Positions 1,467 to 49,497 of a stretch of 64,000 nucleotides of DNA are shown piece by piece (positions within the stretch are counted from its first letter, which is position 1; every line of letters starts with the position of its first letter). The notes below the pieces were generated by a model, which was not told the DNA's origin, did no database searches, and saw only the letters and a program-made list of their open reading frames with translations. Source of the stretch: Polytrichum commune (taxonomy: Eukaryota; Streptophyta; Polytrichopsida; Polytrichales; Polytrichaceae); contig OX485809.1 in NCBI GenBank assembly GCA_950295325.1, positions 2,604,001-2,668,000 on the forward strand, given 5' to 3'. Both the position numbers and the translations under genes were made by a program.

Positions 1467-3160
1467 ATTGGAATTGGACTTTTCGAAAGCGGTTTTAACA
1501 TTTGGTGTGAGAGGGATGTGCATCAATGGGGACCTTTATGAAAATGTGTCATCTAACTTCTTAACCAAGACACCAACCGAGTCCCGGTGAAGAGTTTCTA
1601 TAATTGTGCTCATGTTGGCAAATATAGATGTTATTTTTTTTCGGTTTTGGTATGAGTAACGTTCAATGTTGTTATCGAACATATGTATATGGTAGGCCCT
1701 TCTACTAACTGAGGTACGTGGCTCTGTTGTAGGCAGTTCCAACTCCGCATATAAAATTTGGTCATGGGATCCTTCAATGCGAATAACAATTACAAATCAC
1801 GAAGATTGTCAAGAATTGAGATGTGAACTCTATAAGAGATCAAAGTGAAGTTTTTTTTTTTTTTAAATAAAAAAATAAATTCTCTTCAAACAATCACATT
1901 AACTCTCCTCAATGTGGTGGTTAGGAAATATTAGGGGGGGGGGGGGACTCTTCATTGGGAACCTAAATGATGTGTGTGGGTCATTATGAAGCTAAACCCC
2001 CTATATATGAGAAGTTCGTAGAGAAAAACAAATGTATATATACTAATTGCAGGCTAGAAAATGGACTCATGTATTTATACTAAGCCTATTAGTTCAACGT
2101 GATGAATGCCTTCACTACATATGTAAGGTATGAATTGTGAATTAAATATGCCTTTATTACATATGAAATCCACTGTCACTTTCCAATGAGAAAATCATCG
2201 ACCATTTTTTCATCCGTAGCATGCAACTCAACAATTGCACCAAATAAACAAAGACAAAAGCACAATGACTTTAGCCAAGATGTGAAGAGGAAAACTCAAG
2301 GGAACCCAAGAGCACTCCAAAAGCCAATTTTTTAAACACCTAGAACCCAAAATGCAAACCCTAACAAGAATGGACATGGTAGTCATTAAGGACTATTATG
2401 CTACGACAACATCGGATGACATTAACACATCTATTGTCAAATTTTTCTCTAAACCTTACGGCCCCCTTTTGCACATCTGTCTTTACTTCCAAATTCTAAA
2501 TAGCCTTTTTGGATGTACCCACTAGAGAAAACACAATACGGTCCTCTCTCTTACGTATATTGTGTATGCTAATGCCCAATACACCCCCCCCCCTTACGTT
2601 AATTCATATGTGGTCTGAAGAGTCCACCCTCTGGGCTTAGATCGTTGTCCTCATTTTGAACACATAATCCAATCACATATGTACCACATGTTGTTTTGAC
2701 ACCCATTCAAATACCGGCCTCCGGTTATGAAGAACGATCACGGTAGGCCCACAAGACGTTACTCATGTCTCGAGGTGAAGGACGAGTTTGCGGCGACATC
2801 CACCCTAATTTGTGAAATTCTCAAGGAATGTCCAAAATATCTACCCAAAAAAGTATATATTGGTCACTAAGTGACAAAGGCATTGGGAGTTGATCCCATG
2901 ACTTGCTCAAATACAAACTCGTTCACGACCACGTCTATATATAGGTGGGTTAGTTCAACTGCCAATTTCTTTAGGGTTTAGGGTGGAAACCTCACAAATC
3001 TCCAAATTGGTTTGACAAAATTGGTTTGATATCATCCATAACATTCCTAGGAGTGGGCCCGACGTTTGGCATGGGTTTACATGGGAATATTGGGCGTGGG
3101 CCATTGCAACTCATATTCAAGTAAATCTAGACATATGATCATCAAAATCCAAACGTTTTG
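1467..3160. other. Intergenic, no gene seen
   Basis: AT-rich sequence with homopolymer runs: a 13-G run at 1934-1946 and a 10-C run at 2584-2593. Short open frames occur on both strands but show no recognisable domain and no consistent splice pattern. Confidence 0.5.
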
Positions 3161-3169
3161 GTTGCTACA

Positions 3170-3480
3170 ATTGGGTAGATTCGTCGATACATTTTTTGAA
3201 ACGTGAATTGCATAAGAGATGTGTGAATACTTAGTGTTTATTTGAATGTTATGTTTTAAAAATATGATGAATTAAACAACATATCCTTTTTGATGTTAAA
3301 TCTATTAAAGTACATGTTGAATTGTGAAAAATGTAATCGAAACAACTGCTATAATATTTTCACAATCAACATTGCATATTCTATGGTAGGATCCTACCGT
3401 ACCATCGTATCACATGATCATGTGACATATTTCAACACATTATAACTTTGGACTTTGGACTTAGTATAATTTTATTTGAG
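3170..3480 (+). repeat. Diverged dispersed repeat, copy 1
   Basis: This stretch aligns collinearly with about 49150-49470. Shared landmarks are 'gtgaaaaatgtaatcgaaacaa' against 'gtgaaaatgcaatcaaaacaa', then an imperfect palindrome around a 'ctatggtagg' or 'ctatgatagg' core, then 'acttagt.taattttattt'. The other copy has expanded the core into a 13-bp tandem array; this one has a single palindromic core near 3380-3405. Superfamily not identified. Confidence 0.6.
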
Positions 3481-6400
3481 TTAGTTTTGTACCCAACCCA
3501 ACATACTCCAACCCATATCCAAGTTACAAGACATATTGGTGTTGTATGAATTTAGAGAGTTATGTCATATAAATAACCTACTAATCATTGGAGGAATGAA
3601 ACTTGAACATGCTATAATGGACCTTACACTAGCAACTCATGTTAAGGTGCCCTAGGCTAAATCACATTTGTGTTCGGCTGGGCCCCGCCCCTCCCACGCA
3701 TATTTGCAAAAGTTGGCATAGAATACCATAAATGTGCAATTGAACTTTGCAGTCACCTTTGTAGTGCTTAACTTATGAATACTTGACAACTTGTAATAAT
3801 TAATTCCACATTCAACTGAACATGTGGTGGTCGTGGTCGTGGTTGTCACCCCATTGTTTCCCACCGTTCTTGCCCAAAGAACCAAAAAGAATCCAAAAAA
3901 TAGGCCACGTGTCAGAAGATTTTTCACATAAAAACATAGACAAAAACAAACATGTGAGCAAAGAAAGAGGGAACATGTGTAGAAAGGTGGGGGCAACCCT
4001 GGGAGAGGTGGCAAGTATGGAGCCAAGGTGGTGGGCATGGCATGTCAAGGGAGACGATGATGGGTCATGAGGGGCTTGTGAGCATGGGCATGGGGGGTAT
4101 ATGGACATGGGGGCATATGGTTGCATGGGCTTTTGGGGTTGGGTTGACCCAATATATCAATTCATATGCATTGGCGCAATGAGTTGGGACGACACATGTC
4201 CAAGCTAGTAATATGTACGTTGGATCATATTTGTTAAGCATCATAGTTGTAAGGTAGGTGGACCTCTCTCGGGTTGTGACCTATTGTGGAAACCTCAAAT
4301 TAACGGTATAGTGGACACAAAGCATATCTTGAACTAATGGTCCTCAAAAGAATCAAAATCAAGGTAAGGCTTGGCATGACCTATAGGCACACACATGCAA
4401 GTATACCGTGACATAAATAGGTGCTCATGGAGGCTCCAAGTGATCGTATTGGCCATGCATGGATTTGTCAGTGTCACACTTAAATGAACCATATATTAAG
4501 CATTAGAAGCAAGCATGGTAGCCACTTGTGGTCCCACACTCTCACAATTATGAGGTGCTAAGGTAGATGTGCCTAATTCAGATACCTTTCTCTCTACACC
4601 CACCTCTAGTAAGACATGAAACATACAATCAGTGCTAGATGATTTGCAATTCCAAATCGTGCATGTAGCCATTTGCCTTGTATTTTTTGGAGCTCATATG
4701 AACATCTTATTCATTATTAAAGTGAATCTCTTGTGCTCATATAGTCTCCCCCCCCCCCCTCCCCTTTATATTCACTATTGAGCCTATAATAGTTAGCATA
4801 GTTTGTGCACATAGTCCAATCTCTTGTAACACATGTTTGTTTGGTGTCCATTCTTAGACCCACACCTAACCACAAACCACTTAATATATGTGTCCAAATT
4901 ATTGTCATGTTGGAATTGGGCATGTTTACCTTAGGTAAGATCATGATAGGTTCTTCAAGAAGCATTTTATCCCAATAAAAAGCAGGCCATGACCAAGATG
5001 GGTAGCACAGATGGATGACCCTACGTGACCACAATGGGGCATAGGAACTTTAATTCACTTTGAACTTTGGTAAGAAGTTGAGATATGATTTGATTAGTTT
5101 AACTTGCATGGACTCCAAATGGGTTCCAACTCCACTTTGCATCGCTATTTCCAACAAGACAATTGGCATACAAATTTGATAATACCCAAACTCACCATAG
5201 TGTCCACAATAGGTGTGGTTGCATTAGATGCAAAGACTGTTGCCCAACCTAAAAGAGCTTCATGACAACTTTAGAAACATGTGATTGAAGTCTTAGGAAT
5301 CCTCGTACATGACGAACTCACACATGACTGAAATAAGCACGAGTGAATCTTAATGATGAATAGTTTATCTTTTAAAGGGAAACCAAGGGACAAATACCTT
5401 GGATTGTTATAGGATTCCTTCTAGACATTAGTCCTCATAGACCAATCTTCCTTGATACTTAGTACCTTGGGTTTTGTTATTTTGATTCATACCAAAAACC
5501 TAAGTACAAATGGTAATCCAACCGATGAAGGCCACATGAAGGGTTCAAGAAGATGCAAGGAAGTAAAACATGATCTCCAACATACGGTCTCGAAAGCATG
5601 GTTGCTTGTAAGATATGGTGCGAGGTTTGGGTGAGGATCATGTGTATGTCATTCCACAAATAAATTTTCAAAGCTCAAATATGAAGATTAACCGATAATG
5701 ATAGGAGATTTAATTTAACGTCAAATTTTGCCAACTTAAACATGGAATATCTAAGTTGCTCAAATACTATGTGAGGTATACAACCCACATATCTGCATCA
5801 AATTCAACGTGGTCGAAATTGATGTTAAAGAGACTTAACATTTGGCTGGAAACTTTTTCCATAACATCTCTGTTATGACTATTGCAGGTCTTGCAAGATA
5901 TATGGAGATATCTTGCAAATACTGATACATAATCACGGAAACATCACAAATGTTGTTGCAAACGCTAACTACAAGCTCACCAAAAGGAGTTCCTTAGTCA
6001 ATATGCTGGTCCAAATGCAAAGTAACACCGTGTTCTTCAAAATTTGGGTCATCACCCACTTCCAAAAACCACAAGACGAAGGCATATTTATCCACCGTTG
6101 AATTTCATAAGTGCATGTCGATTGGTAACTTCGTAAATGAGCATGTGTCCTCTCAAAAACAATCGATGAAAGCAAGTTTTTAGTGTCATGCTTCCCTAGG
6201 TCACTATCAACGTAATTTGTCAAAAAAAAAACTCCAATTACCACTTTAAGAATCCCAAAGGAAGAGTTCATGTCATGCGTGTCCTTCAAAGTCCACAAGC
6301 TCGGGGCACGGATTGCATGGGCACCTCAAATCAAATAATCAAGTCAGCATCCCGCAGCATTGACGTCACAAGTTCAAAAGTTCTTATTACTTGCACAAAT

Positions 6401-8300
6401 TAAAATTTCATTCACCATGCATGGTACCTTGACTGGTGTGACTATTGTCAAGAATTGAAGCAACTATTTACGATGAAGCAACACGAATTACAATCTTCCT
6501 TCAACCTTGCACATTGGCCGCCACTATGCAATGCATGATCTTCATAGTGCCAACTCGGCAATTGACATTCTATAAAATGCCCACTCCCTCATTTTACAGT
6601 CTCAATGATTTGCGTATACATTGCAACAGTCCGATCTTGGTTGGTAGAATCTCACAAGAGAAGAAAGCCGATCTTGGTTCCAATCAGGTTGTTCGTTTAT
6701 GGAATTATTGTTGATTTGATAGTCCCAATTGAGATGCGACAAAGACAGTGAAAGGAACTTAGCAAAGCTATTTTTTGCAATTTATTGTCAAGCACTTCAT
6801 CAATGAGGAATATACACAGAAATAGATAAATTATTGTCCGAAGGAGAAATGATGACATGTTGTTCACGCAGTTGATGGCCATGATCATCGCACAAATGAT
6901 TGCAAAATTGTCTTCACGTGGGCTTCAATCAATCAAAATGTGACAGTGATCAAAACAAGTGCAAAGTGATTGCGGAGGAAGTTATGAAATTGAATGACAC
7001 TTCAATTTCTTTCCAGTCATTAGATCCATTGTCCATAACCTTCTCATAGACCGAAAGTTGTGCATGCATATTTGACAGTTGGCAACAGAAAAATGCGCAA
7101 TGTGCAGAACCCTTCAAAAGAATTGGGTTCCGGCAACAATTGTGAGAAGATTCCAGACGTAGAATCATTTGCCTTTGGAAAGGTTGGCAAGGTAGATTTT
7201 TTTTATTGCAAAATCTTGTTGTTGCGACACAATTTGTTTCTTTTCTTTTGTCCATCATGATGATGTAGAAACTCTTGATATGTGAATGTGTGTGCATTTG
7301 CATATGACGCATATGTTGCAAAGAACTTCATCAATGTAGGGTTTTGATTTCTACCTTGCTCCAGTACCATAGCATTATTCAATTAAGTGACTAGGTTGGG
7401 TGGAGCCGGGAATATGCCATGTAAGGTGCTAGAATTATACCTTATGAATGCTTGTCTAAGCAAATTCAACTTGATTAACTGTGAATTATTCATGTGAAGC
7501 ACTATCACTAAATATTGTTAGAATGGAACGACTCGTAACAATTGAGTAATGTTATGACAACGACAAGATCCTGAGCAACATGATGCAATCCTAGAAACTT
7601 TAAACAAACAAACAGCATTGGGTTATTTTTTCGCACACACATGATACATGTAAAGACAACACACAACCTCTAATGCTCCAATGTAGCAAGCTTTAGAGTA
7701 TTTTTTTGCTCGCATCTAGATCTTCACCCTGTTTCATTGTTGATCTATTGCGGCCTTTGTAGATATACTTGTGAATTTATTTCATGGTCTTCATTATTGT
7801 TCAGAAATTCAACACATACAATTCAGTCTTCTTTTGCGGGGTCATGAATTTTATTGGCTGGTGCAATATAACCAATATAAATATACGAGGCAATTGTTCA
7901 TTCAGGAACACTGTGACATTGAATAAATAAATTCAGCCCATGCACGCTCGACGATATCCCATATCAAAGCGTCATATTTCAAGTCAAATATTCATACAAT
8001 AATATTCGGCTGATCAACACCGGTCTGTCTGGACATCTAGACCTAAGGACCTTTTATATTTCACATTAATTGGGAATGGTAGTCATAGTGCCCAAATTGT
8101 CAGGATGTTGATACAACCTAGTGAAAGCACAAGTTTTGAAACAAGTCAAACATGTTGTGGGAACTACCAATGTATGAAGTTAAAAAGAATTAGTCTCCCA
8201 ATACTACAAAGATTCAAATTGTCATCTACGTCATGCTCCACAACGTCGGCAAGGCCATAATGAAGTTTAGCATGCAAATCGGCTTGGCCATGTCAAATGA
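3481..8300. other. Intergenic, no supported gene
   Basis: Open frames appear on both strands at 3650-4130 and at 5450-7320, but they overlap in several frames and match no family I can recognise. A 12-C run lies at 4748-4759. The minus-strand frame at 5969-6298 faintly recalls a Copia RNase H region and was not accepted. Confidence 0.45.
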
Positions 8301-9240
8301 ACTCCAACCGATTTTTGTTTTGTCACAGTGCCAAGCATCAGCAATGAATTAGGCACGTCTACCTTAATGCAACAGTAAATAAGCAAGATGGTGTTCCTTA
8401 ATGCAATGTTTCACTCAGATGTTGGCCATCATCACCCAAACGCAACACAACATCTTGCATACCTTGAGGAACATCTCCCACTCTTGGCAACAAAACCACA
8501 ACGCCACTACCGAAAAGATAGCACTTTCGACCCATGTGAATCTCAAAGCATATATCAAGAGCCCAACCGCCTTGCTTTTGATTGAATTCTCTAAGAACCT
8601 CATGCACTTGTGTAATGTATAAAGGAAGCGGGATGAATTCTCAATATACCTTGAAGCTTCACCATTGAAAGTTGCATACAATTGGGGATCGTTTGAGGAT
8701 TGTCGTTCTTTACACGCTGACGATATAAAGTTGCAAATTAACAAGATGCCACACTAAGGTTTGGTGACGACGACTCTGCAAAAAGGTGTCTAAATTTGAA
8801 GGAGAATTGAGACATCTTTTTATTTGCAACTTTAAAAACGGAAAGACCGAGTTTTTTGACTTGTGTGACACTCCGCAGAAGTTTTGATAGAAATTTTACC
8901 TGACATTCTTTAGATTGTGCATCATCTGCTTGAAAGCAATGGAGGGGGTCTCTGGGAGAAAGGAATTGAAGTCTTGCCATGCCAACAGCAATCAACAAAT
9001 TTTGGATTGCACATAGAGGACGTTGTGATTCTGTCACCAAGCCAAAACGAAACAATACAATACACACATGATTCATTGATTACATGCCAATAACTTTCTT
9101 CCATGAAGAATTCTCTCTCTAACCTTGTAATCTTGCTCAACTTCCACCTGGCTAAAACATAACCTTCAACCAAATACTTCCTCAAGAAGTAGGCTTTGCA
9201 AACAAGTCGGAAATGTAGGACTTTGTTTCCTGTTTTCACG
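8300..9240 (-). other. Unresolved open-frame cluster downstream of the receptor gene
   Basis: Minus-strand open frames at 8415-8744, 8738-9076 and 8922-9239 overlap end to end. They could be a decayed coding region or the 3' flank of the receptor gene, whose stop codon lies at 9671. No catalytic motif, repeat or family signature could be identified, and no splice pair joins them convincingly. Low confidence that anything is coded here. Confidence 0.2.
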
Positions 9241-9670
9241 TGGAATGATCCACCTTCCAGGACAGTAGAATAATGCCTCTTGATGCTTGGTAGGCTTAGA
9301 ACTAAAGTGTGAAATCATCCCCACAAAGACAACTCCCTAGTGTCAAGTGGCAAGACAATTCAGAAATCGCTGTAAAACAAACTTACAGTGCAAAACCTCT
9401 GTGGAGTGAGTTTATCAGACCAGATTGATCCAATAGATACATCCAAGAACTATTTTCATTTGGTGCAATATATAACAAGCTTAATGACCTCCTATACAGC
9501 TCTATCATTCTAAACACGTGGACCCTCTAGCTATGAACTGGATTCAAATTCCTGTGAAGGTGGAGATGCTACATATAACAACAATTCGAGTTACACAGGA
9601 TTGATGAACAAAAATTATTTATAAGAAAAAGGGCCTCTCAATCTTGCTACTCTATAGCTGTCTAGACATT

Positions 9671-12600
9671 CTACTTCTGCATATGTTCTATTATTCTAGA
9701 CATAGACTCGGACCTCGACACCTGATTGTTTGGTCTTCGACGATATAAGTATATTGCACCTCCGAGCAATGCCAGTGTTGCCACAACAGTGGCAAGAGTG
9801 CCTACAATGATTCCTGCCTTGGTTTTCGATGACATACTGTTTGGATTAGGTCCAATGTAGGTCTGCAAACACTGTCCTCATTAGCAAATGGTATGGATTG
9901 ACAAATTCAAAGATTCTGAAAGTCCTATAGTGCTGTTCAAGACTTTTGTAATAACCAAAAGCTTAGGCCCCCTTTACACTAATGAGGTTGAGAGCTCAAA
10001 GAAAGGAGCCTTATCATTGGCATAAAGGAGCCTCTAGCCCATGCTTGTTCACTCAACTCCACTTCACACATGAGCTTTCAAATTGAGAGCTTGAACTTTT
10101 TACCAGGCATACAATGCTTAGATGGCATAAGCCTTGATGGATCCCATGTGGAATGACTAAGACAAGCTCTCAGTCATTCTTGACAAGCTCTTGGTCGAAT
10201 TCCTAAGCTACCTCAATGACGGAGGCAGCTTAGGGTGGTCTGAGAGTTTGAGCTCTCATTTTGTGGGCCCCAAAGCAATGGGCTTTCAAGCATTCATTTG
10301 CTTGTCATGAATGCTACTTTGTTTAGTATCATTCCACCCTTCATACGTCACTTTGAGCATGGCCACTTTATACTTGCTAAAACTATTGAGAGGTTGAAGC
10401 ACACTATTAAAAGCTCGAAGCTTTCAATAGGTTGAACTTTGGATGAAAGATTGTCACCTCCAAGTATTGAACTCCCAAATGTTGCAAGTTTGAGCTCTCA
10501 ACTCAAGCTCTAGGCAAATTACGAAGGGGGCCTTATTAGTCTTTGGTGACATAAATTGTAGCTCGTCCAACTACTGTAATACCCTCTTTATTTTACAAGG
10601 TTGTTCAATCTAGAGGCTAGAGAGGCACTTTGCAAGTTCTTGACGACACATATCCTGGTGTACATTGCTTCCAAAATGTGGTTCTAGCAGAGGGGCTATT
10701 CCAGATAGTAGGTCCATGTGAGTAATCTGGGACATGAGTAATCTGGGACACAAGCCTTTCCTCTAAGAAAATACTAAAATTCCACACTCAAATAGTCCTT
10801 GATGTTCTTTGTGATTGTAATGAATATTGAGAGTATCCGAATCTCACCGAGTTTGGACCAAACTCGCTCCCAGGTTGTTGAAGAACTTGAAGATTTTGGA
10901 CAGTTGTGTTCTCAATCTGGCCCTTGATCTGCATGCATCAAATCGTGAGGTTTAAACAAAATTGTGCCGGAAATTGGTAACCGGAACCCACATTGGAATT
11001 GCTTGTCTAATTGGCAACCACCTCAAATGTACTGTCTCAAGAGTGGTTGTACATCACATTATGGCTCTCATTGTGGGCAGACTATCTCAAGAACATGCAT
11101 CACCAGGATAATGTTTCTCCAAATACTCTTTTCCAGATGAGAAGCTTCATGGAGATTCTCAAACATATTGTATCCTGTCCTCCCATCCGAGCAATGGAGA
11201 AATTACAATAACATTAATTGTCACTCACCTCCCAGTACTCAGAAGTAAGTGCGACAAGATCGTATCCAGGAACCTGCGTTGCTACACTGCGGCTTCCAGT
11301 GATTGGGTCAAATGAGACTGTGCCAGAACAACCCTCAAACTGTGGAATTCCAGGACCAGATCCATTGAGTGCTGAGTAAATATTCTGTCGGGTGACAGGC
11401 ATCTTGGCTTTGATGAGGTTATCAATGATTACATAGTAGGTTTGCACAGCATCAATGAGGTGCGGGACATAAGAACGTGTTCTGTTCTTTCCTTCAGAAG
11501 GAAAACCTGTATAATTTTTTGCTTTCCAGTAGGAGTAGAATTTCTCACAATTGGTGTTATTTAAGATGGTCCCACCTGAGACACAAAGGTACCATTGTGA
11601 GTTTGTTTAACACTTGAGGAAGGCAAGAAAATATCTCTAGAACCTGACATTTCCTATATAACACACAAATTGCGACAGTAATGTTGCAGGCAAAGAGAAT
11701 GTATGAACCAACTCTTAGTTTTTACTCTTACATAGAGGCCAATAAGTGTACGAGCCTTGATTTTGAAAGTTTACTCTTCTAACTTTCAATTATTCAATAA
11801 GCATCACTGGACACGTAGAACATAAGAAAGGCACTAGAGGGTAAAACTTCAGAGTTCGATGATAAGAAGTTTATTAAAACATACCATCTGGGGCGACCCC
11901 AATCTCTCCTTGCAAAGCATTTACCAGGTCGGGATCTACAACAACCATGACATGGAAAATAAAATTCAGGAAGTTCTTAATTTCACCGCTCTGAAGTGAC
12001 ACTCCAGTTATTGGTAGGCATTGCAAACCAGAACAAAAGAGGTGCAAACCAGAGGAGATCCTTTCCCTTCAATATGGAGTAACTACACTCCAATCTGATT
12101 AAGCTGCTGTATGCACATTGGGCTCTAATAGTGTGTTCATCATGCACCATCATCTCTTCCAGATAGGTCAGCATCTTCAAAGTAGAGAGCAACAAAGTAA
12201 ACAGGAAAGAGCTACAAACAAATTTTGCTTTAAAATGTCAACAGGGATTTATGCAAGAATGAAGTAGGAAAGTCATTCTCCAGAAATGCTTAAGTACCTG
12301 TCACGTTGGTATCTACAGGATCGAAAGCAGTTACCCCATCCGACCCAAAGTACCAATATGGATATCTCAATTTATTCTGTTCACATAGGAGCGGAATCAG
12401 AAGTCATATTCCCAATTTCTCAACTCCTGCCCACTTCAAATGCTCAAGCAGGGACAGATCTATAATGAAACTTGGAGCTCCACCATTTGAAGGTCAATCC
12501 CTTAAGAGAGTGCTGACACTTAAATGCATCTGAAAGTAGTAACAAGATGCAACAGGGTGGAGGTATACCAGACTGCGAGCTGCTGACCATATATCATAGG

Positions 12601-15224
12601 CTTGAAGTGGTTGCACAGCCATGATAACAAACTCATCATTGGCAACAGAATCTAAGATAATTCCAAGCTGGGTGCTGTTAACAGTTGAATTATCTCCAAC
12701 ATCCAGCATGTATATACGAACTGTGGCATATGAACTTACAGTCTGCAAGCAACAAATTCCATCACAAACCACTCGTCGAAGATACAGGATCTTGAAGAAA
12801 ATTTCTACAAAACAGACGTAAAGAGGAAATTTGTGTGAACTTGTAACTGATTTTTAAGAACTTAAATATTGTTGAAGGTTCAACACTCCTTGTAGTCTTC
12901 AGCAACTGGTTATGCCAGATCTGTCTGGGAGGGGTCTAGAAAGTCCTTAGAGAGACCTATGATTAGTTATTTGATTTGTGTAAAGCTTGCGGGTACTCAG
13001 CCTTCAACATGTTCGGGGTTGATGCTCGGTTATTCATGCATCACAATGCGAAAATTTATTCCTCCAAAAAAATAGCAGGCATTTTAATCATAGGGATACC
13101 ATCAATCAAGTAGGTGTAGCTTCTAGGCTCCTATTCTAGACCCTGTATACATAAAGAAGTGACTAGCAATGATCGGTGGACACTACATCCATTTCATTCT
13201 CTCCTAATCACATTGATCTTAGTAATTCTCCTAATTAGTAAAAGGTGGCAATCTGAAACGGTATGAACATGCATTTCTTCCCTGAAATCGAAGCAGTGAG
13301 GGGAGCCAACGGCCTGTAATCATCATTAGTTGAGAGACGAAGTATAGACGTTGTGGATTATACAGTTACTACACGTAATTCTTAAATCCATTGTGACTCA
13401 CTAAGTATCGTGCTCTTAAGATGAGAGCATTGGTAGTCACGTGCATTTTTTAATAACAATAGAGAAGCAAGGAATACCTGGGCAAGAATGATTTTCATAT
13501 ACATGCACGTGTACAGACACGAAAGAGACTTCAAGAATTTTACATACCTCATTTATGCTAGTCGCCAAGCTCATGCTGTAGTACTTCTGGACATACAGCA
13601 ATGTGACCTTCTTTATGCCTAACTTCGCTACCTGCTCATCCATTTCACAACCTCGATTCTTTAATTAATCGGAACTTGGAAGCACTATAACTGGAGAAAG
13701 GATGTATCACTGAACACAGTAGGAACCCCACCTTCTCCCAAAACTCTGAATAATGAACATCAGTCTGCACCCTGTTGATAATAAATTAATGCGAGTAAAT
13801 CTCAAAGGCAGAAGATCCTCCCTCACACCCTTGATGGAAAATTATGTTGCTAAAAATTAGCATAGAAACTTGGTTGTCTATTGAAACCAACTCAGTCTGC
13901 TCTTACACATTCAGGTCACAAGTAATAGATTTGTGCAGACAATACTGTAACCAGTATCTGTTACAACTATTGGAGACCAATTTCAGATGAGGACATGGTA
14001 GGACATCGATTAGGATTTATTGCTTCATTAAGTGGTATGTTCTATCACTCAATGATGGGAGAGGATAGAAGAGAGTGTAGACCACCTACACTGGCTGCTA
14101 TAGCTGCTGCTTGATACTTATCACTAAATCTGCAGGAGAAAAGAAACAGAGGATCGTAAGAAATCGTCAAACATAGTTCAAACATTGGGGTACTTTATCA
14201 GAGAAAACACTTCTGATTGACAGTTAGGAGGTACAACAATTCCGTTTGTTGATTGAAAGACACTACTTCCTTGAATGGTCTACTCCTAACAGTAATAACT
14301 TGATGTAAACTTATAAGAAATTTGAGTGAGGTTAGCAATAGAGTAAGAATTCCCTGAACGTCCAGACTCTGAAATGATGACCCCAGTTGCCAATCAAAGA
14401 TATTTTAAACAGAATCATACACAGAAACATTATGTCATCTCAAAAACATGCGTTTCCCCCTCACCTTTGGGCAAGTTCTGAACTGTGTGCTTACACTGTG
14501 CGGAAGAAATTCGGAAATATTCCTCGGCTTGAGAGAAGCTCTGACGTGGCAGCAAATGATACGAGAGTGTAATTACTATACAGAAACGTTCTGGCAGCTG
14601 ACATAGCTGCATCACTGCAAGCAGGGCCTACAGCACCGATTAATTCAGGTACCACTGCAGTGACCATCATCTCTGCCGCCAGTTGCCCTTGTTGCCAATC
14701 ACATTCAGTGTTCTGAGGACTAGAGACAAGTTGATATGTTCTGTTTTCGGCATTTAAAACCTCCATGGCCACTTGGAATGCTGACCTCCTGGCACAGTAG
14801 CCCATAAGCAACGTCAAGTTGCATAAGCTGCTAATACGCCGATGCACAATCAAGTATGGAGGGGTATTCCATCCAACACAACTTCTTGTAAACACAAGGG
14901 TCTACAACTAACAGCACAATTATTCATATCTGAAGAAAAATTCCTGATCAAGGAAAAACATAGTAACACGCAGAAGATGGTCCTTCTGATGATTATTGTC
15001 TATCAAGAGCAAAAGCTCTAAAACATTTTTTAGTAATTACTGACTGTAAGGGTGGTGAGAACGTACCATTCAATTGCCAGGCTGCTGGGGATGGAGGAAT
15101 CTGGTGAAGGCGCCAGGAAACCAAGCCTATATGTTGTTTTGTTGTCTGCTTCGCCATTCCTCACAAAAGCACAGAGGAATATTACAAGAAGGAGAGATGA
15201 TACATTATCCACTTTCCTTGCCAT
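9671..15224 (-). CDS. ANF-receptor-type ligand-binding, single-pass membrane protein
   Basis: Eleven exons in coding order: 15224-15067, 14788-14495, 14129-14090, 13764-13732, 13631-13548, 12742-12569, 12376-12298, 11935-11885, 11575-11229, 10928-10848, 9862-9671. All junctions are GT/AG and in phase, giving 510 residues. Residues 1-26 form a signal peptide. About 30-420 is a periplasmic-binding-protein fold of the ANF_receptor type: the block at 104-153 (GAVGPACSDAA, then SFAATSELLS and FPNFFRTV) is typical of natriuretic-peptide, GABA-B and glutamate receptor ectodomains. Cys82/Cys110 and Cys314/Cys387 are placed like the family's disulfides. I count 13 N-glycosylation sequons before a membrane helix at about 463-487, then a 23-residue basic tail starting RRR. 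There is no kinase, cyclase or Lig_chan domain, so it resembles a clearance receptor more than a plant GLR. Ligand unknown. Intron 10 holds a MITE. The alternative of a truncated GLR is unlikely because the stop follows a complete helix and tail. Confidence 0.85.
9966..10532. mobile_element. PIF/Harbinger-like MITE in an intron
   Basis: The 567-bp element starts GGCCCCCTTTACACTAAT and ends ACGAAGGGGGCC, so the outer 9 bp are perfect inverted repeats. A second inverted match, gttgagagctcaaa, lies about 20 bp in on the left and about 35 bp in on the right. TTA is duplicated at 9963-9965 and 10533-10535, as expected for PIF/Harbinger. No transposase is encoded, so it is non-autonomous. It lies inside intron 10 of the receptor-like gene and leaves the splice sites untouched. 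Confidence 0.75.
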
Positions 15225-17090
15225 GGTTCTAGTCCTCCTTTGAGGCCCTGCTTGAGCGAACACAAGAAAATTCCTACAAGTTCAAAGTAACAGAAAAATG
15301 GGTATCAGGAACAGAAAAATGGCTCAGGTTAAGGAATTCCAGAATCATACAGAGCAATTTGTCCCTGCCAGCTGTACATTGACTAGAACATCAAATGCTG
15401 AATACCAGCATAAACGATCCTAAACCAGGATGAATTGCAACAACACATTTGAACTCTCGATACAAATACCTCTTGCAATTTGCTTCTCAATAACACAACC
15501 AGGACTGGCGTGAAAATTTCTTCACCATCCTTAACTTCTGATCATCCTCAATTCGCATGAGAAAGAGTTCATAGCCTCACCTTGACTCGGGACAAAGAGA
15601 GCAATAAATAGGTTGACAGACAGGCTTCTGGTGCTCCGGGAGTCTACATCGCGTTTCAGCTTGTCAGCAGAAGCTGGGATTCCTCTGCAGCTGAAATATA
15701 AGAGACACTACCCACGTGTGAGCTGTGAGAATGACAATCTTCAGGCGGAGAACCTTCAGTGAATTTGGATCAAAACAACATATTGATATGCATATATTTA
15801 TACATGGTCCAGAGTTCCTTGACTATCAAGGGAAAGAACTCATGGTATGATCTACACAAGAACTATACAAGCACTCCATGTGTTTTTTGAACGATAGATA
15901 AGAGTGTGTCCATGAGTGGGACAGAAAAATCCCTGGGTGTACACAAGTAGCCCTAATACTGTGATTATAGATACACCGAGAAAATTCCTATTCAGGGTCA
16001 GATGTAATCCAATTCGACCACAACAATGGATTACCGATATGGTTCGCTCGCTGCCGATATGGGACCTAGTACACTGTTGTGCAAACGAACTCAATCTCTA
16101 ATTTTTGGTGACTTTATGCCAAAACCTAAATGAAAATGGCTGACAGAACAGATAAGTAGACTCTGAAATATTGAAAGTTTCAGAGGAACCAAATGTGGAC
16201 TCACCGTAATCAGTGAGGGAGATGAGGAAATTAGGCACATTCCAGGTTGATTACGCATCGTAATCTGCAAGAGATTCCACGAAGGTATTGAAACTTTGAT
16301 TAAGATGTAATATATATCTCAGCTCCAAGTCTCAATGCGCCATGGCTAATCATAGTGGACTCATAAATTAGCAAGTCACAGACACGGATAAGAAGAGTGT
16401 AATGGGGTTTCTTCATAGATTAGAGAGGAGTTCAATACCACCGGCATGAATACTCTAGAGCGGAGCTAGAAAATGCGACAAGAGGTTAAGTAACAATAGA
16501 ACTGGAGCTCACAGTCTAATGTGCAACCTCGTTCAATGTTGTTCACAATGATAAGAGCACATGCAAGATGCCTTTGTATGCGGTAAGAGAACATTGCAGT
16601 GAAGACGAAGAAATTGTTACCAAGAGAGCACAGTCAGCAACCACAATACTAGTAGCGTTGCCTGGAAATTCGTACTTAAAAAAAGACAACCTTATGAAGC
16701 TAGCTGAAGTGGAAACAGTCCATAGTTGGATTCCTCAAATTAAGAGAAAATTAAGATAAAACGTGACGAGCTATTATCACCAGAAAACACGTACATAAGA
16801 GTTTAAGTGTTATGGTTGCTTCTACAGACGCTGTGCTTACTCGGCTGTTCTTTCACGAAGCCTGTACTTTAATAAAGTCATTAAATAAAATTGCTCTGTC
16901 CAAGAGAACTGTGCATGAAGTACCTTGTCAATGCGACTAATTTTCACTCTGGACGATACAGATAGCAAGAAAAGAGATGAACACAAGGCTATCACTCTTT
17001 GCTGCAGGTCTCAAATGACCAGAAAGGATGCTATGACCCAGTGGACACCCTGAGTGCTCGCGATTGCAATAATTCCTCGGCAACCTCAAA
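15225..17090. other. 5' flank or leader of the receptor-like gene
   Basis: No protein-coding exon is supported here. The interval separates the first coding exon from the GC-richer island at 17.1-17.8 kb. It could contain untranslated exons and introns of the receptor gene: several CAG acceptors occur on the minus strand near 15250-15290. The transcript start cannot be placed from sequence alone. Confidence 0.35.
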
Positions 17091-17099
17091 TGGATTGCC

Positions 17100-17790
17100 A
17101 CTCAAGACGACATGCAAGCTGCGAATCGTTCACAAACAGGGAAGTATTTGGCAAAAGCCAGAAAATTATTATGCAGGCTGCCCTTTCTTCCCAAATCCAA
17201 CAAAAATTGCTGCACAATCCCGCAAATCTCACACGGCCATGAATGCGATCGACAAGAAAGATCCTACTCACCAGAGAAGTGCGAGCTGCGCATAACTCCG
17301 TTGGTCGCTTATAGAGTCCTCGAAAGCTGCACCGAGCGAGAGGGGGAAAACAGTGATGTAAACAGTTTTGGAGAGCTGCTTTTTTGGCTGCTAAAACCAG
17401 CATGTGAGGTTCTTGCTCCACGGTGAACGGAATCTGTCGATTAACGTGTCTGCGGGTAGCACGGGGGGAGAATTTGGCGATGGGATGGTGGAGTGGAGGC
17501 CGGCAGCAAACAACAGCAGCAGCAGCGATTCATCAGCAACGGGTCCAGGGCGATGGTGGAGGAGCTTGGAAGTGAGCGGCGATAGCGGAGGGAGAAGGGG
17601 GGAGTCGCCTACGACCGAGACAACCTTGGCCCCACCACCGTGCTCACCAATCATGTTCTGCCACGTCGACATGCAGAGCCCTGTAGCTGGGTCCGTCCCC
17701 AATAATGGCACTGGCAAACACATTCATGCCCTCTTAGGTCGTATGTTTATTATTAGTGTTTTGTTATTCCCCCTCAGTTTTCCAGTCAGG
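17100..17790 (-). promoter_or_regulatory. GC-richer island, possible promoter/first-exon region
   Basis: Base composition rises clearly above the AT-rich surroundings, as it also does in front of the MTP and GDSL genes. Open frames run on both strands (minus 17391-17723, plus 17404-17805), which is expected in GC-rich DNA. Neither translation shows a domain. On the minus strand a GTGAGC donor follows a short ATG frame near 17660. I infer a promoter and leader for the receptor-like gene; a separate small gene cannot be excluded. Confidence 0.3.
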
Positions 17791-18350
17791 ATGAGCCTTA
17801 ATTAACACCATCATGTTATCATAGCCCAATCAGTGGTCAGGACGTTCTCTTGCACATGATGACTTGGCGTCAGGAATGCCGTGTAAGCTAAGCTTATGAA
17901 TATGGGGGGGGGAAGGAATTATCGCATACGAGCATACCTCTCATTCATCCACGATAAATGCAAAGAAGTCCCGAAAGAGTATGCAGTCCAAAGGTTTTTT
18001 TGAAGTTGTCTGGACACTGGAATCAAAGTAGAGGCATCTGTAACCGATCACTCAAGAGATTCCGCGCCAACTCTGGAGAAGTATAAGGTGGTGTAATTTC
18101 TTCCCCGTGTAGGAAGATAAAGAAAAGGAGGACTGCCATTTTTTCGGTAATTTATTCCTTAGAATGAAATTACTATGAATTTTTGAAGCCAGAAGTCGGC
18201 TTAAACACATTACCAATGTCTAGAGTCTCCCATAACTGCTCATTTTGAGACAAAATCCTCCTCGCTTTAGCACTCAAAACCGGGGACATGTGGCATGGCG
18301 CTATTGATTCCATGGTGAACCATGATCAAAGTTGAAGACTTAGGGATAGT
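17791..18350. other. Intergenic with a solo MITE end
   Basis: At 17913-17950 the sequence ggaattatcgcatacgagc followed by acctctcattcatcc matches the terminal repeats of the MITE family at 55.4-56.3 kb. No partner end was found nearby, so this is a solo or truncated terminus. A 9-G run precedes it. Confidence 0.45.
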
Positions 18351-18459
18351 TTCCATGTAGGCCACTTCGCCCCCATCATATTCTAATGGAGGTGTAGATT
18401 TCACCTGGTGGCATCTGCATTTCCACTAGAATTTGGTGGACGAAGCAGCCTACATGGAA
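18351..18459. repeat. Short inverted repeat, 19-bp arms
   Basis: Arm 18351-18369 (ttccatgtaggccacttcg) matches the reverse complement of 18441-18459 with one or two mismatches, separated by 71 bp. It may be a miniature foldback element or a chance hairpin. No target duplication is apparent. Confidence 0.5.
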
Positions 18460-18665
18460 TTCAACCTTAGAAAACCATGAAATGTGGAACCTTGTTTTAA
18501 CCACCCACAAAAAGAAATTATTGAAATCAAGCTGAGCCGAATTGAAATTAAGGAACCCTATATATTGCAAATGGGGTCCTAATTGGGAATGGCCACCTCT
18601 ACTCTAGCTTCAAAGACCCTGAATTGTCTTCTTGAAGTAATTTCAAATGAATCGGCAGCAAACTT

Positions 18666-19170
18666 AAGGTCAAGGCATCCATAGTTGACCGTGTCCATTT
18701 AACCGCTCACTATGGTCATGTAATGTTGACATGGATGAGATCTATGTTTTGTTTAGGCCAATGGAGTTAAGGTTTATGTGGTGGCGGCTTGTGGTTAATT
18801 ATCCTCATAAGATTTTTGACAATTGTCACAGCCAAGGAATAGCATTGAGATGAGTGGTTATGGGTTGACGTATAGATCAATTATGTGTAACCCTAAAATC
18901 CATGCCTGGAAATTAGTAATCAAGCACGAGCCGCCACCACATACCTTAAGTACGTTCACATGAAAAATATAGATCTCATCCATGTCAACATTACATGACC
19001 CTAGTGAGCAGTTTAATGGAATTGGTCAACTATGGATGCCTCGACCTTACCCTCATAAGAGTTTTGACTTAGGCCGTAGCCAAGCATTAGCATTTAGATG
19101 AATGGTTATGGGTTGACCTACAAATTGATTGTGTGATATCCTAACTTTACCGCTTGGAAATTTGTAGCAA
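18666..19170. repeat. Compound inverted plus direct repeat
   Basis: Arm 18666-18793 is the imperfect reverse complement of 18925-19049 (about 125 bp each, sharing 'catgtaatgttgacatgg' and 'gtggtggcggct'). The segment after each arm is also duplicated, but in direct orientation: 18802-18920 and 19048-19169 share 'ctcataaga', 'gccaag', 'gttatgggttgac' and 'cttggaaatt/cctggaaatt'. The result is arm, spacer, inverted arm, spacer copy. Transcription through it would give a long imperfect hairpin. No protein is encoded. Confidence 0.75.
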
Positions 19171-20141
19171 TTTCCATATTCATGACATTGGATAACAAAT
19201 TGCCAAATTATTGTAGAACTATATATGTTTAAATCCTTATTGTATAAACATTATATATGTCAACTAAGGTAGTATTGGGTTACCTAAACGATAGTAAGAA
19301 CATCCATGATTTGTGGAAAATGAATCGAAATGCTTTGATGGTGTAAAGTTGGTGTGGGGCTCACAACACTCAATTGAGGATGTACATGAAGAAACCCTAG
19401 CCTTATTGTTTTACTTGCAACAACAACTCAACTAAGGGATGTCTTACACATGTGACCCAAGGGTTGTGAGAAAAAATGATTTAGGATATCTCATGGTCAC
19501 GGTCGACAGTCCGATGACCATGACCAAGAGAAATATACGTCAATTTTTAAAGGACTTGGTCATGAGACATAATGCAAAGCGGACCTAGACATGGATGTAG
19601 TATTTTTAATGAAAGTTGAAAAATGAGCAGTTCTTCTATTGAAATAACAGTACCTTAACATTAGAGTAAATATTTTCTTCTAATATGGTCACCTTATTTT
19701 CCATTGAGACAACTTATTCGGGTTCTCTCGTTGCAAAATGCATGTGACTAGCAAACATTATCCAGTTTCGGACATGTAGGACTCCATGTCTCTTTCTCAT
19801 CCATGCTCTAGCATGTGCACCCATGGCCACTTTTATTTTTGGTGACCTTGTGAAAACGAAAAGGGATGGTCACTCATGTCTCGACCGGTGATCATGGTCA
19901 TTTCAAAAAGCAGTGGTCATGGTCACCTCTTACCAGTGTAGACATTCCTTGGGGATTCACATGTAGGGGAGTTAATTCATCATTTGTGCATCTCATATAC
20001 ATCATAGGTTGGTACATGATTTGGTACATGGTTTGGCACATGTCATAGTTGCGCCACATAATCAACATAGTTGTGTCACATGATTAATCAAGTTTATGAA
20101 ATGATTTTGTAAGTAGTCATGCATTGATTTTGCACACCGAT
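19171..20141. other. Intergenic, no gene seen
   Basis: AT-rich sequence with several 'atggtcatg' or 'ggtcacg' motifs around 19495-19925, suggesting decayed repeat units. No coding exon is supported. Confidence 0.45.
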
Positions 20142-20459
20142 TAAGGGTGGGTTTACATTTGCTCCACGTCTAAGAAAATCGGGGTCTAGAATACCCACTT
20201 GTGAATATCTTACTTTGAACTCAAAATTTAAGCTCAAAGTAAGTTTGGTTTCAGAAAACATGGGTGGTGTGTTTTCTTGAGTCAAAACCAACAACATGTG
20301 GTGGGAAAGAAATGCACACATTAGCAGTGCATCACTTTCTTGTATTTTGGATTCATGTCCTAGTGTAAACTCTTTAGGTCCAATGTTGCTCTCTACATGT
20401 AACATAGCTCAAATTTGGTGTTTCTTTGGTCTTGGACCTTGATATAAAGCTACTCTAAG
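20142..20459 (-). mobile_element. MITE family 'GTGGGTTTACA', copy 1
   Basis: The left end aagggtgggtttaca and the right end ...taaagctactctaag are imperfect inverted repeats. The right end includes gtttctttggtcttggacc, which is the reverse complement of ggtccaagaccaaagaaac at 56374-56392. A second internal match is 'agtgtaaactctttaggtcca' against 'tggacccaaggagtttacact'. It is therefore an inverted relative of the element at 56353-56752. Superfamily unassigned. Confidence 0.6.
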
Positions 20460-20769
20460 TTGTAAGACTTGGGAGGAAAGCCTTAACCTATATACAAGTG
20501 CAATTAAGTCCATAATGCATGTGGAATATGTAAACTTGAGATTAATCCTCAATACCTACTTCTTTTGTTTGTATTTGCGCATAACCATGCAAAATAACTC
20601 AAACTTCAAAATCTAATTTGGAGGTGAGTATTGGGTTGACATTTTAGATTTTGTTTGTCAACACCACTACCCAAAAAATAATATAATGTATGTATGTATG
20701 CAAAAAATGTGCATATCATGTTCCAAAATTTGCTAATAGCACGTTTCTTCTTTAAACCTTCGAACTTTT

Positions 20770-21200
20770 TGGAAAAATTGCTAAGATTTGTTCATATCTT
20801 ATGCTAAAAGACTTCATATCACAAAAAATACTTTCAAAGATGGTCAATTGTTTAATTTTCTTAAGTCTCTTAGTGGTACACATTTCAAGGTAAAGTTCAA
20901 CTTATATGTGCAATTAGAGTCTTTCATAGAGGTTGGGGAACTCTACAAATAGCTCTATTTTGATCCTTCTTTGAGAAACTTCCTATTGCGAGCTCGTTGG
21001 GTCATTGAGTTGTGAAGCATATTTTGAAAGTTGGGTGAAACTTTTAAGACTTCCACTTTCCACCTCTCAAACTCTGAAATAATTTAAAGATCTAAGTTAA
21101 AGTATATGCATGGAATCCATTGACCTAGATTTCAAATTGGCCTATGCAATGCTAGCTTGACCCATCCATTCTAGTAGAACAAACTAGAAAACCGGTTTTA
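20770..21200 (+). repeat. Dispersed repeat R, copy 1
   Basis: Contains 'ttttgaaagttgggtgaaac', 'ccacctctcaaactctga', 'cctatgcaatgctagcttg' and 'cccatccattctagt'. The same order recurs at 21480-21680 and, inverted, at 25620-26090. Family unknown; it encodes no recognisable protein. Confidence 0.6.
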
Positions 21201-21479
21201 ATATCTCGACACCACTCTTTGTGTATGGTAATTTAAGCAATAAGAAATCCAATAATGAACACAATTGGAAGGACCTTTGTATCCAATCAAGAAATCAACA
21301 AACATGCACTTTTGATAACCATGACTAGATGAGGGGAGGTTCGGTTTTCAATCCGGTTGTTGCAAATGTTTCATCATAGATAAGAATGCAAGTGCAACAC
21401 GAGTTTTGTTATGTAAATCTAATAAGTAGAAGTAGGACAACATGAAAAACAAACCGAATAACACCCACATACCTTTAAG

Positions 21480-21680
21480 AGCCCACTAGCTCATCATGTA
21501 TAGGAGACCCTATTTTGAAAGTTGAGTGAAACTTTTGGGACCTCCTCTTTCCACCTCTCAAACTTTGAGAGAATTCTAGGATCCAAACTAGGGTATGCAT
21601 GTGAGACCCACCGTCCTAAATGCTATATCGGCATATGCAAGGCTAGCTTGCCTCACCCATCCTAATAAGACAAGGGGAGG
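21480..21680 (+). repeat. Dispersed repeat R, copy 2
   Basis: A shorter relative of 20770-21200, sharing 'ttttgaaagttgagtgaaac', 'ccacctctcaaactttga' and 'gcatatgcaaggctagcttg'. It ends about 90 bp before the pogo-like element. Confidence 0.6.
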
Positions 21681-21770
21681 ACAAGCTAGGGACAAGTTTA
21701 GGTGAGTTTCGAAATAATCCACTTGCCCACCAGATTCTAGTGAGAATAAGGACAAACTTGCCCAAATGTA

Positions 21771-22344
21771 CAGTCCACCCTCTATAAATGTTAACCCTCT
21801 CTAAATGTTAACTTTCTTCTACTCCCCACATATTGCACACTATAAATGTTAAACGTGTTAATTGTTAACAAAATGGTACTCCCTTCTTTGTAAATTTGAC
21901 TCTATAAATGTTAACGAATGAAATACAACCATAATATGGATGATAAAAACTACACATCCAAATTATAGTGACTTGCAATCTAGTTTTGGTACCATTAGAA
22001 GGTACATTGAATCACGTTCATGTGATGTGTCCAAGTATGTGGGTTTGTTGGTGCAAATTGAGAAATATTTGCAAGTTGTGCATGCAGATGAATCTCACCA
22101 AAGAACCATTGATTCATACTTCACATGTGATTTGTAAACTTGATATTGAATAAAGTTTTGATTGGGTTTGCAATTTTATGAATGGTATTCTCTCACAAGG
22201 ACTCTTCACAATTGCTTATATTTATAAATGTTAAGATTTGTATATTGCTCAAAAAAGTAATTTTATAATTGTTAACTATTAACACCTCTATAAATGTTAA
22301 CTTTGATCTACTCCCGAGGGTTAACATTTATAGAGGGTAGACTG
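21771..22344 (+). mobile_element. Pogo-like (Tc1/mariner) deletion derivative
   Basis: Ends are CAGTCCACCCTCTATAAATG on the left and, read inward from the right, CAGTCTACCCTCTATAAATG: 28-bp inverted repeats with one mismatch. TA flanks both sides (21769-21770, 22345-22346). This matches the CAGT...CCTCTATAAAT termini of plant pogo elements (Emigrant/Lemi1). The motif (c)tataaatgttaa recurs about seven times near the ends, as expected for transposase-binding subterminal repeats. An open frame at 21940-22137 ends with residues QRTIDSYF, a PIP-box-like motif found at the C-terminus of pogo-type transposases, and the preceding helix-rich residues fit that tail. The DDE core is missing. At 574 bp it is a non-autonomous internal-deletion derivative. 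Confidence 0.75.
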
Positions 22345-22399
22345 TAGTTGGAATATAGTGGGGTAGGGTTCGTATGTGCCAACTACTTTGAATAGGATA

Positions 22400-22759
22400 T
22401 GTAGCGTCATATGGTATTTTATGTCACTATGGTAACTTTTTGGATGACACTTCTTATGAATAACTGCACAAATATTGTCATGGATGATAGATGAGTTCAT
22501 CCATTGGTCAAAAAGTACCTTCTCTTGTCAGCCACTTGTGATTGCCATAGATGATTGAAATTTGAATGAAAAATCCACTTTGTAACTGACAGTAATTGCA
22601 ACACTATAAATCTATAATCCCCCCACAATATTTTTTTACAAGGAATGACGAATAATGCTGGGTTAACATTTAGTGTTGGTGACACTATATTGTGGTGTAC
22701 AATTAGTACCGAGCAAGACAATTAGATTGGTGACACTAAACATCATTTCTAGTGTAGTT
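22400..22759 (+). mobile_element. CACTA-like MITE, copy A
   Basis: Relative of 51224-51632, 55826-56191 and 56941-57309. Landmarks in order: 'gtcatatggtattt', 'gtcactatggtaac', 'gatgacacttctta', 'gattgaaattt.aatga', 'acaaggaatga', 'gttaacattta', 'ttggtgacactaaacat' and a terminal 'agtgtag'. The best-preserved family end is ctacactaaatatgatattt followed by agtgtca. Starting with C(A)CTAC, it is reminiscent of CACTA termini; the assignment is tentative. No coding capacity. Confidence 0.6.
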
Positions 22760-22859
22760 ATTCTTACCATCTCAAATCTAGGTCCACCTACTAACCTCCT
22801 CCTCCTTCTCAAATCGGTCTTCAAACCTTCGGTGACTGACACTTGTAAGTTTTTTTTTT

Positions 22860-25619
22860 AAAAGTGTTGTAGCGGATGTATGAAAGTCTAGCAGCCCGTG
22901 ATCATGGCCCTCCACATTCTAGCATACCTCCATAATGTGGTTGGTTGACGGCTTGTTATTCCTTAAACGTTAGTGAATCTTTGGACAATATATCCCAACA
23001 TTCATTGGCCGAGCATTTCCATGTTGAATAGGAAATCAACAAAATTATGTGAGATGTGCATTGTTGTCACACATGCAAATTAGAATGCGGTGATCATCCC
23101 ATTCGTCCAATTTTGAGTGTTGTGCAAGTGTGCATATTGATTGAAACAAATCTCAAAAGCATGAAATCGTTGGGGTTTAGGGTTTGGCTGCTAAACATAT
23201 GCTAGCCTAAACGTTTAGCTTAAATACGATCTTGTCAAACCAATACCAAAATGCTTATGCAAATCAAGAAAAGTGCATTCTCAATTAAAAATTAAACCCC
23301 CCCCCCCCTCCCCCTCCTTTGAAACTTCAACTTTGCCCTATTATTGTGCCAGCCATTGACTAGTATTTTGCATGCGCTTCATGCAACAAAACAAGCATGC
23401 TTCTACATTGATGGGGGTTTAAATCCTATCTTGTAGTGAGTGGGTTTTGCTGACTTCGTCAATGTATGGGAACGTGCCTTTAATGCACACAAGCAAAGTC
23501 CCTTTGGAGTTACATGTCTTTCATATGAAAAAGCCGCATAAGCCGGGAACACCAACTATTAACGTTTGTATAGCCCACATTGATCTTACATGGCTCACAA
23601 CACTATTTGGCCATGTGGGTCGATTCCATGACCATGAAATATGTCAATTATACCCCGTGCCCCTGAATAAACTCATAATATTCAATCACTATTTATACAT
23701 TCAGGTTGCATCTGGCAATTTGGGTGGAGTTACACTCCCGACACCATGTGTATGAATTATTGTATTGTAAATCTTTAGAATACTCACAGAAAACATTGTT
23801 CATCCCAGTACTATTCCACGAAATTATTATCACTAGCAACACTAACGTTGAAAATACCGACACTATTCACAATATTCTTATTATTCAAACCGACACTTTT
23901 CATTATTCGTATCGGCATCAGTTTCTTCCTCTTTTCTTAAGTTTCTTCCGATGAAGATAAGATAGTGGATGCCCATGTTATATGCTAAATATAGAATGGA
24001 GCACAACCATGTGGTTGAATAATGTTATAGTGAATCTTCAAATAGTCCATGAATAATAAGGATAATATCATCGAGAAAATATCCACGCCAATTATGAATG
24101 TGTTAGTTGTCATCGCTCACATTATTTGGGAAAGTCTAAGAATTAAAGTGATACAAATCAAATTATGTTGATTAAAACTTTATCTGTTTTCAAACCGTAC
24201 CAATTAATGCAATAAGAGAGACTCCTTTACTTTTATGTAGTTATTAGTAAATGCAAGTAACTCAATGTGGCCCACTTGGCATGGTAAGTAACACCAACTT
24301 TAATCCATGTTTTTAACAATATATTCAATGTAGTTGTATTTCCACTATACACATCCATGTCATAAACTTGTAAACTAAAGAATAGTCCACTCGCCATCTT
24401 CATTGAACCACCACTATATATACTATTGAAGGTGGAGGAATTAACATGCTTTCATCCATCACACATATAGTATGCAATATATTGAGTGTAAATTGTCATA
24501 TATTACCATTTGCAAACCATTGGAGCATGTCGACCCTTATATGTTTTTGTATGTACATATGGGCTTGGATTGAAGCGTCTATGTAAACTCACCCTTTGTG
24601 GATGAAGAGGCTCCACTAAAAAAAGTCCCATGCAAGATTGAGGACTGATTCATTCCAATTTGACTTTGCTAGACCAATTCAAGGTTTCTAACTTTATTTT
24701 CAGTGTCAAATAGACTAATAAATTCACTTACATGCTAAAATATAATTCATGGCGTTCTCACCTTCGCAATGGATGGGTTTATGTAGACACCACTTACCCT
24801 AGCCATACATGTGAGGCACATACATGTATGGCTCACCTCTACACTTGGCACATCTATAATATCAAACTCTTCAACATGGAAAGGGGGGGGGGGAGTTGCA
24901 TTTGCTACAACCATGAGACAAAATTTGTTAAATATGGGTTCTTGCTTCATCCTCCTCATCATCCTTGGTGTATAAAACTTGAATTCTTTACAATATTGTA
25001 GAGAAACAATCTTCATAATGGTAATACTCGGTCTCATACATAACATTATTCAACTACATGCTTATGTTCCATTCTATATTCAGCATCCAACATAGGCCTC
25101 CACTATCTTACCTTCATGGGGAGAATCTTAGAAAACATGAAGAAATTGATGTCAGTACGAATAATGACTAGTGCCAGTATGAATATTATGAATAATGTCG
25201 ACATTTTCAACAATATGGATGCTATTAATAGATTTGCAATGAATAATAACGGGATGAACCATATTTCATGTGGATAATGCTAGGGATGAATAGTTATGGG
25301 AATATAACACCACCTAAATCTCCAAGTGTCAACCTGTATGTACAAATAAATCTTTGTTTGTTTGGGGGCCCACATAATATAATTGACATATTTCAGGGTC
25401 ATGGAAGTGATCCACATGGTTGAATAAAGTTATGTAGGATAGACAGCTTATTATACACATCCACTTGATCATAATTGAATGTTGTTGCTTGTGTATATTA
25501 TTTACAAGTCATTTAATCTATCCATAAAGTAAAGCATATCAAGCCATGGCTTTAGTCCCAAACCCCAAGTTTATGAGACTCAATACAAAGTCAACCAAAT
25601 GTTCTTAAAATAGCATGTA
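22860..25619. other. Intergenic, no gene seen
   Basis: AT-rich, with a 12-C run at 23297-23308 and an 11-G run at 24883-24893. Open frames such as 23447-23755 and 24732-25001 have no recognisable content. Confidence 0.45.
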
Positions 25620-26090: not shown

Positions 26091-26279
26091 CCCTTTTAGG
26101 GTTTCGTAGTTAGATTTCAGCAAATATGACAACAACTTTGGTTCAATATGAATGGGGAGGACATGGTTTACCAAGAGGAGAGTTTTCCAACACAGAGCCA
26201 ATAACAACAGAAAACACACACAACACCATTGCGGATGTTGGAGTTACAACAGAAGAGTTGCATGTTACAGAGGAGTTGG

Positions 26280-43150: not shown

Positions 43151-43199
43151 GTAACTCAAGCTCTGGGGAACATGCATACAGCTTTTTTGACCCTCGGCG

Positions 43200-49475: not shown

Positions 49476-49497
49476 ATTATCAATTATGAGTAGGACA

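Follow-up and report, generated by a model that had tools for sequence, protein, structure and literature searches.

Plant responses to extracellular glutamate and other amino acids are usually ascribed to glutamate receptor-like (GLR) channels, and it may be asked whether land plants possess a further receptor of the Venus-flytrap type. This question is raised by a gene located in a 64,000-nucleotide stretch from the moss Polytrichum commune (C7:2604001-2668000, i.e., contig OX485809.1 of assembly GCA_950295325.1, which comprises 408 Mb in 64 contigs). This whole stretch was the frame of the analysis and is called the window below. The gene lies on the minus strand, begins with a start codon at position 15224, ends with a stop at 9671 and comprises ten exons that form a stop-free frame of 499 residues. 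From the profile E-value, from nine introns that are all of the GT-AG type and from another gene whose nine introns occupy identical positions it is clear that this gene is real, far beyond chance. We tentatively propose that both genes encode a family of type I single-pass surface proteins whose clamshell would close on an α-amino acid or a close derivative and which would act via an effector-bearing partner. This proposal is regarded here as quite possible but still somewhat short of probable.

The predicted protein consists of a signal peptide, an ANF_receptor domain, one helix and a tail of 23-24 residues before the stop. ANF_receptor (PF01094) is matched with an E-value of 7.5e-26 and 91.4 bits (cut-off 25.4) from profile position 2 to 336 of 353, and the sole further Pfam match at E up to 1 is Peripla_BP_6, which likewise stands for the type I periplasmic-binding fold (32 bits against a cut-off of 31.7). 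Lig_chan, 7tm_3, kinase and cyclase domains were not matched in the Pfam search of this protein. Thus, an ANF-type ectodomain devoid of channel, kinase or cyclase, as described in the initial annotation, was found again, and the same applies to the signal peptide and the single C-terminal helix. They correspond to a hydrophobic leader (residues 8-26) and to a strong hydrophobic segment at about residues 450-476, which is the only one besides the leader. The tail that follows is led by RRR and terminated by TAG. Also the previous count of 13 glycosylation sequons agrees with the sequence, as 13 of altogether 14 are located outside the signal peptide. The profile of a branched-chain amino-acid binding protein was matched below threshold (8.8e-6, 25 bits, cut-off 477). 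Searches of the PDB with the two halves of the protein yielded one chance match for one half and none for the other.

It is the putative ligand pocket that carries the functional proposal. According to PMC2680970, the bound α-amino acid is held in mGlu1 by Ser165, which contacts the carboxylate, and by Thr188, Asp208, Tyr236 and Asp318, which contact the amine. With these five residues S111, T134, D154, Y182 and D263 of the window protein are aligned, and the paralogue exhibits the same five of five. Elsewhere four of five are present in AtGLR3.4, three in T1R3 and in each GLR of the moss itself, one in NPR-A and none in NPR-C. For GABAB1 the count is two, the aspartate at the fifth place adjoining a gap and thus not being trustworthy. 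When nine pairwise alignment settings were compared, S111, T134 and D154 were matched in all nine, Y182 in seven and D263 in six of them; in the two settings that missed Y182 its place was taken by Tyr203, and the three misses of D263 are due to local alignments that end earlier. All these matches are alignment-based. Because both copies have diverged at half of their positions and nevertheless keep all five pocket residues, the pocket argues for an amino-acid-like ligand.

A search of the own genome with PF01094 revealed seven exon matches at five places, namely in the GLR genes on contigs C1 and C6, on the 24-kb contig C21, in the window gene and at 38.15 Mb of C7. The last one is the paralogue (C7 38150399-38159523), situated on the same contig 35 Mb away from the window gene and composed of ten exons that encode 498 residues. 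Its architecture comprises a hydrophobic leader, an ANF_receptor domain (8.5e-27, 94.6 bits), one helix and a tail of 19 residues followed by a stop. Both proteins are identical in 229 of 485 aligned residues (47%), and all nine introns occur at the same alignment columns and in the same phases. The ectodomain cysteines 82, 110, 303 and 376 are all kept in the paralogue, and seven sequons are common to both copies (totals of 14 in the window protein vs 10 in the paralogue). With the paralogue as query at least 13 exon matches were obtained in the genome, every one of them inside the two genes. The divergence of the pair amounts to 0.47 for nonsynonymous sites (dN), with a proportion of synonymous differences (pS) of 0.73 and a synonymous divergence (dS) of 2.7 according to Nei-Gojobori, which is so near to saturation that only its direction is safe. 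For the ectodomain dN is 0.44 vs 0.80 for helix and tail, where pS is saturated. Judged from these comparisons the family, of which two members were found, is old and has long been under purifying selection, and the window gene is not a fragment. As the paralogue also ends after its own tail, the early stop belongs to the architecture that both copies inherited from their ancestor. In the viral and prokaryotic contig collections no relative was detected (no viral pattern match, and none of 27 prokaryotic pattern matches was related). Two side observations concern the loci mentioned here. Intron 4 of the paralogue (about 6480-7150 of locus L008) seems by eye to contain an extended inverted repeat that might represent a small transposon of the hairpin type. 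Contig C21 (L012) is characterized by long bacterial-looking frames rich in Ala and Arg, one of them with the ANF fold, and is probably a bacterial contaminant of the assembly.

The clamshell of the window protein would face the apoplast and would close there on an α-amino acid or a close derivative, as we infer because neither copy lacks any of the five residues that hold amine and carboxylate in mGlu1. With less confidence, the protein may dimerize with the help of a GxxxG motif at the start of its helix, which is found at the same place in the helices of both copies and is suggestive of dimerization. Equally tentatively, the signal might pass through a partner that bears the effector (either a receptor kinase or a channel of the GLR type), so that the protein itself would serve as co-receptor or ligand-presenting subunit. 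GLR channels would be the most natural candidate partner because the genome has two GLRs, with receptor kinases being equally open. Several points weigh against this proposal. The GxxxG motif is common in helices. Constraint is weaker on helix and tail than on the remaining protein, with only 4 of 19 tail residues identical between the copies, and consequently no signal borne by the tail is visible. Moreover, AlphaFold applied to the exon 2 peptide alone returned an all-helix model with a predicted local distance difference score (pLDDT) of 49.6, which was discarded, and no usable structure model was obtained. Finally, the pocket motif is in part also present in the amino-terminal domains of GLRs, for which amino-acid binding is not demonstrated according to PMC11479355.

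The gene model deserves a closer description, because it deviates from the eleven exons and 510 residues of the initial annotation. This longer version was not borne out because its 11 extra residues would sit between Cys110 and the third cysteine of the ectodomain, where the alignment with mGlu1 (154 vs 155 residues between the same anchors) leaves no space for them. A model of 507 residues with a weak acceptor of exon 4 was also dropped in favour of the 499-residue one on the basis of alignment length, and the paralogue agrees with this choice, its junction between exons 3 and 4 being identical. From the two cysteine pairs named earlier Cys82/Cys110 was found unchanged, while Cys314/Cys387 had to be renumbered and now reads Cys303/Cys376. 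All exons are on the minus strand. Exon 1 (15067..15224) provides the start codon, the signal peptide with its hydrophobic residues 8-26 and the first strand of lobe 1, and exon 1 of the paralogue is similar. The core of lobe 1 is encoded by exon 2 (14495..14788), which includes Cys82, Cys110, Ser111, Thr134 and the FPNFFRT block and shares 46% identity with its counterpart in the paralogue. Exon 3 (14090..14129) has only 40 bases and carries Asp154; the corresponding paralogue exon matches in length, position and phase. Tyr182 is located in exon 4 (13548..13631), which has an equivalent of equal length and phase in the paralogue. Lobe 2 is formed by exon 5 (12569..12742) and exon 7 (11885..11935), and the FGSDGV block including Asp263 lies in exon 6 (12298..12376). 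With exon 8 (11229..11575; 48% identity to exon 8 of the paralogue) the ANF domain ends, and this exon contributes Cys303 and Cys376. Exon 9 (10848..10928) encodes the membrane-proximal stalk, and exon 10 (9671..9862) the end of this stalk (YxGPNPN), the single transmembrane helix with GxxxG, the basic tail and the stop codon TAG.

Among the alternatives the one that survives best, although it is unlikely, is a decoy, scavenger or clearance receptor that would bind an extracellular ligand and remove or sequester it like NPR-C. The latter has a single helix and a short tail and clears natriuretic peptides. The fold, one helix, a short tail and the lack of an effector domain would fit this role, and the Cys in the GPxC turn is also found in the rows of NPR-C, NPR-A and GABAB1. 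Kinship with the NPRs is moreover compatible with approximately unbiased (AU) tests, which together with the tree comprised ten rows and 177 alignment columns. None of the deep groupings was rejected, neither of the pair with the NPRs (p 0.424) nor with all three GLRs (p 0.226) nor with the ectodomains of class C G protein-coupled receptors (GPCRs; p 0.18). These three groupings are indistinguishable by the AU test. However, pairwise similarity to the NPRs is near background. Expressed as z-scores against 500 shuffles of the window-protein segment, it reaches 3.3 for NPR-C and 0.4 for NPR-A, in comparison with 18.5 for T1R3, 15.9 for GLR3.4, 11.6 for GABAB1 and 9.2 for mGlu1. The pocket signature is absent from the NPR rows (none and one of five residues), and neither tail contains a YxxPhi, NPxY or di-leucine motif, which is no proof against internalization. 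The specific likeness to a clearance-type receptor, as originally suggested for this locus, is thus not supported.

Somewhat less probable still is a structural or wall/matrix protein in which the fold was kept and the binding of small ligands was lost. This would be in line with the many sequons (14 and 10) and with the little conserved tail, but it is difficult to reconcile with the retention of all five pocket residues in copies that differ at 53% of their aligned positions.

Very improbable is a short form of a larger receptor, in which an alternative last exon would link the helix to a kinase or channel encoded downstream. Four donor-like sites are present within exon 10, the best placed being CAG/GTGTCG at 9723, past the helix. 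However, the 9.67 kb downstream of the gene on the minus strand contain no Pfam family above cut-off (Cap15_CD_rec is sub-threshold with E 0.05), the 7.3 kb downstream of the paralogue give no Pfam match at E up to 1, and the paralogue has its own stop behind the tail. These scans are of limited sensitivity, as a control on the gene itself brought only exon 2 above cut-off and domains split over small exons could escape; the same kind of scan did pick up exons of the neighbouring cation-efflux gene. Within this sensitivity the earlier view that the transcript does not continue past 9671 into a channel or kinase agrees with both genes.

The relation to the GLRs can be described more precisely. 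Both GLR genes of the own genome (on C1 and C6) carry Lig_chan and account for the only two Lig_chan matches of the genome search. Across roughly 170 clamshell columns their identity to AtGLR3.4 amounts to 45-47%, which supports the plant origin assumed at the outset. The identity of the window protein to any of these three is 21-24% and that of the paralogue 16-20%. In the tree the window pair forms a clade of its own (100/100), and the GLR clade (99/99) does not include it. By our own reading of the alignment, the GLRs possess a phase-1 intron five bases from the third intron of the window gene; a further GLR intron stands ahead of the GPxxS block, where the window gene has none. In spite of the common fold and a possible deep shared origin with GLR amino-terminal domains (AU p 0.226), it is scarcely conceivable that the gene is a GLR which was recently truncated or became a pseudogene, since the low identity to GLRs that are themselves well conserved across species, the differing introns and the intact frame under purifying selection all speak against it, and the nesting of the pair with the own GLRs, which the initial annotation had named beforehand as refuting its reading, is rejected (p 0.028 for both GLRs, 0.011 and 0.011 for either).

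A wider and more doubtful suggestion is that some land plants might hold a second, GLR-independent Venus-flytrap family with a metabotropic-type pocket on a single-pass stem, i.e., a class of amino-acid co-receptors not yet described in plants. A plant receptor with only an ANF ectodomain was not found in the literature searched, which included few subscription papers, by titles and beginnings of abstracts among the papers listed; this is weak evidence. Should the suggestion be true, this channel-less and selected Venus-flytrap pair with its full motif would represent a second candidate sensor of extracellular amino acids or a missing subunit. The pair also bears on the question of which part of the class C type of ectodomain was inherited by green plants.

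The remainder of the window was covered by Pfam searches of 20 of its 92 open reading frames of at least 80 residues and of read-through frames (minus strand 1-9670, 15225-25001 and 50000-54500; plus strand 25800-28603 and 43000-52500). Exons with Cation_efflux and ZT_dimer at about 46234-48055 on the plus strand belong to a gene for a CDF-type metal transporter. On the minus strand frames at about 50612-53943 resemble a GDSL esterase/lipase of plants (Lipase_GDSL with 0.0017 and 0.0013, neither of which reaches the cut-off), and remains of a hAT transposase occur at about 25800-28600 on the plus strand, where a read-through frame matches Dimer_Tnp_hAT (1.1e-4, 22.3 bits against a cut-off of 21.4). 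Two tandem arrays are present, one at 63004-63383 with 13.3 copies of a 27-base unit, in which a 190-base period is also seen, and a perfect one at 49338-49426 with 6.8 copies of a 13-base unit. In the whole window neither an Rfam family nor a tRNA was detected.

Compared with known systems, the window protein shares with NPR-C (PDB 1jdn) the ANF fold and the Cys in the GPxC turn but differs from it by an identity of only 14%, which is near background, and by the pocket residues. Among plant GLRs, AtGLR3.4 (PDB 7lzh) has the same fold, is the second-best kind of PDB match (2.1e-8) and is 22% identical over 167 columns with four of the five pocket residues. In contrast with the window protein, which stops after one helix, has other intron positions and falls outside their clade, GLRs possess Lig_chan and a pore behind the clamshell. 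The ectodomains of class C GPCRs (T1R3, mGlu1, GABAB1), which include the clamshells of animal taste and glutamate receptors, are similar in several respects: T1R3 is the best PDB match (6.4e-9), all five amino-acid-binding residues of mGlu1 are present and GABAB1 has the Cys in the GPxC turn. What distinguishes the window protein from these receptors is the missing seven-helix domain, because it has one hydrophobic segment besides the leader and 7tm_3 is not matched; an exon-wise search of the own genome for 7tm_3 gave no match either, though the control of this search was silent as well. Venus kinase receptors of invertebrates differ by their tyrosine kinase, a kinase domain being absent from the window protein, but according to PMC2680970 they likewise present a Venus-flytrap ectodomain on a single helix, and one of them is stimulated by L-Arg.

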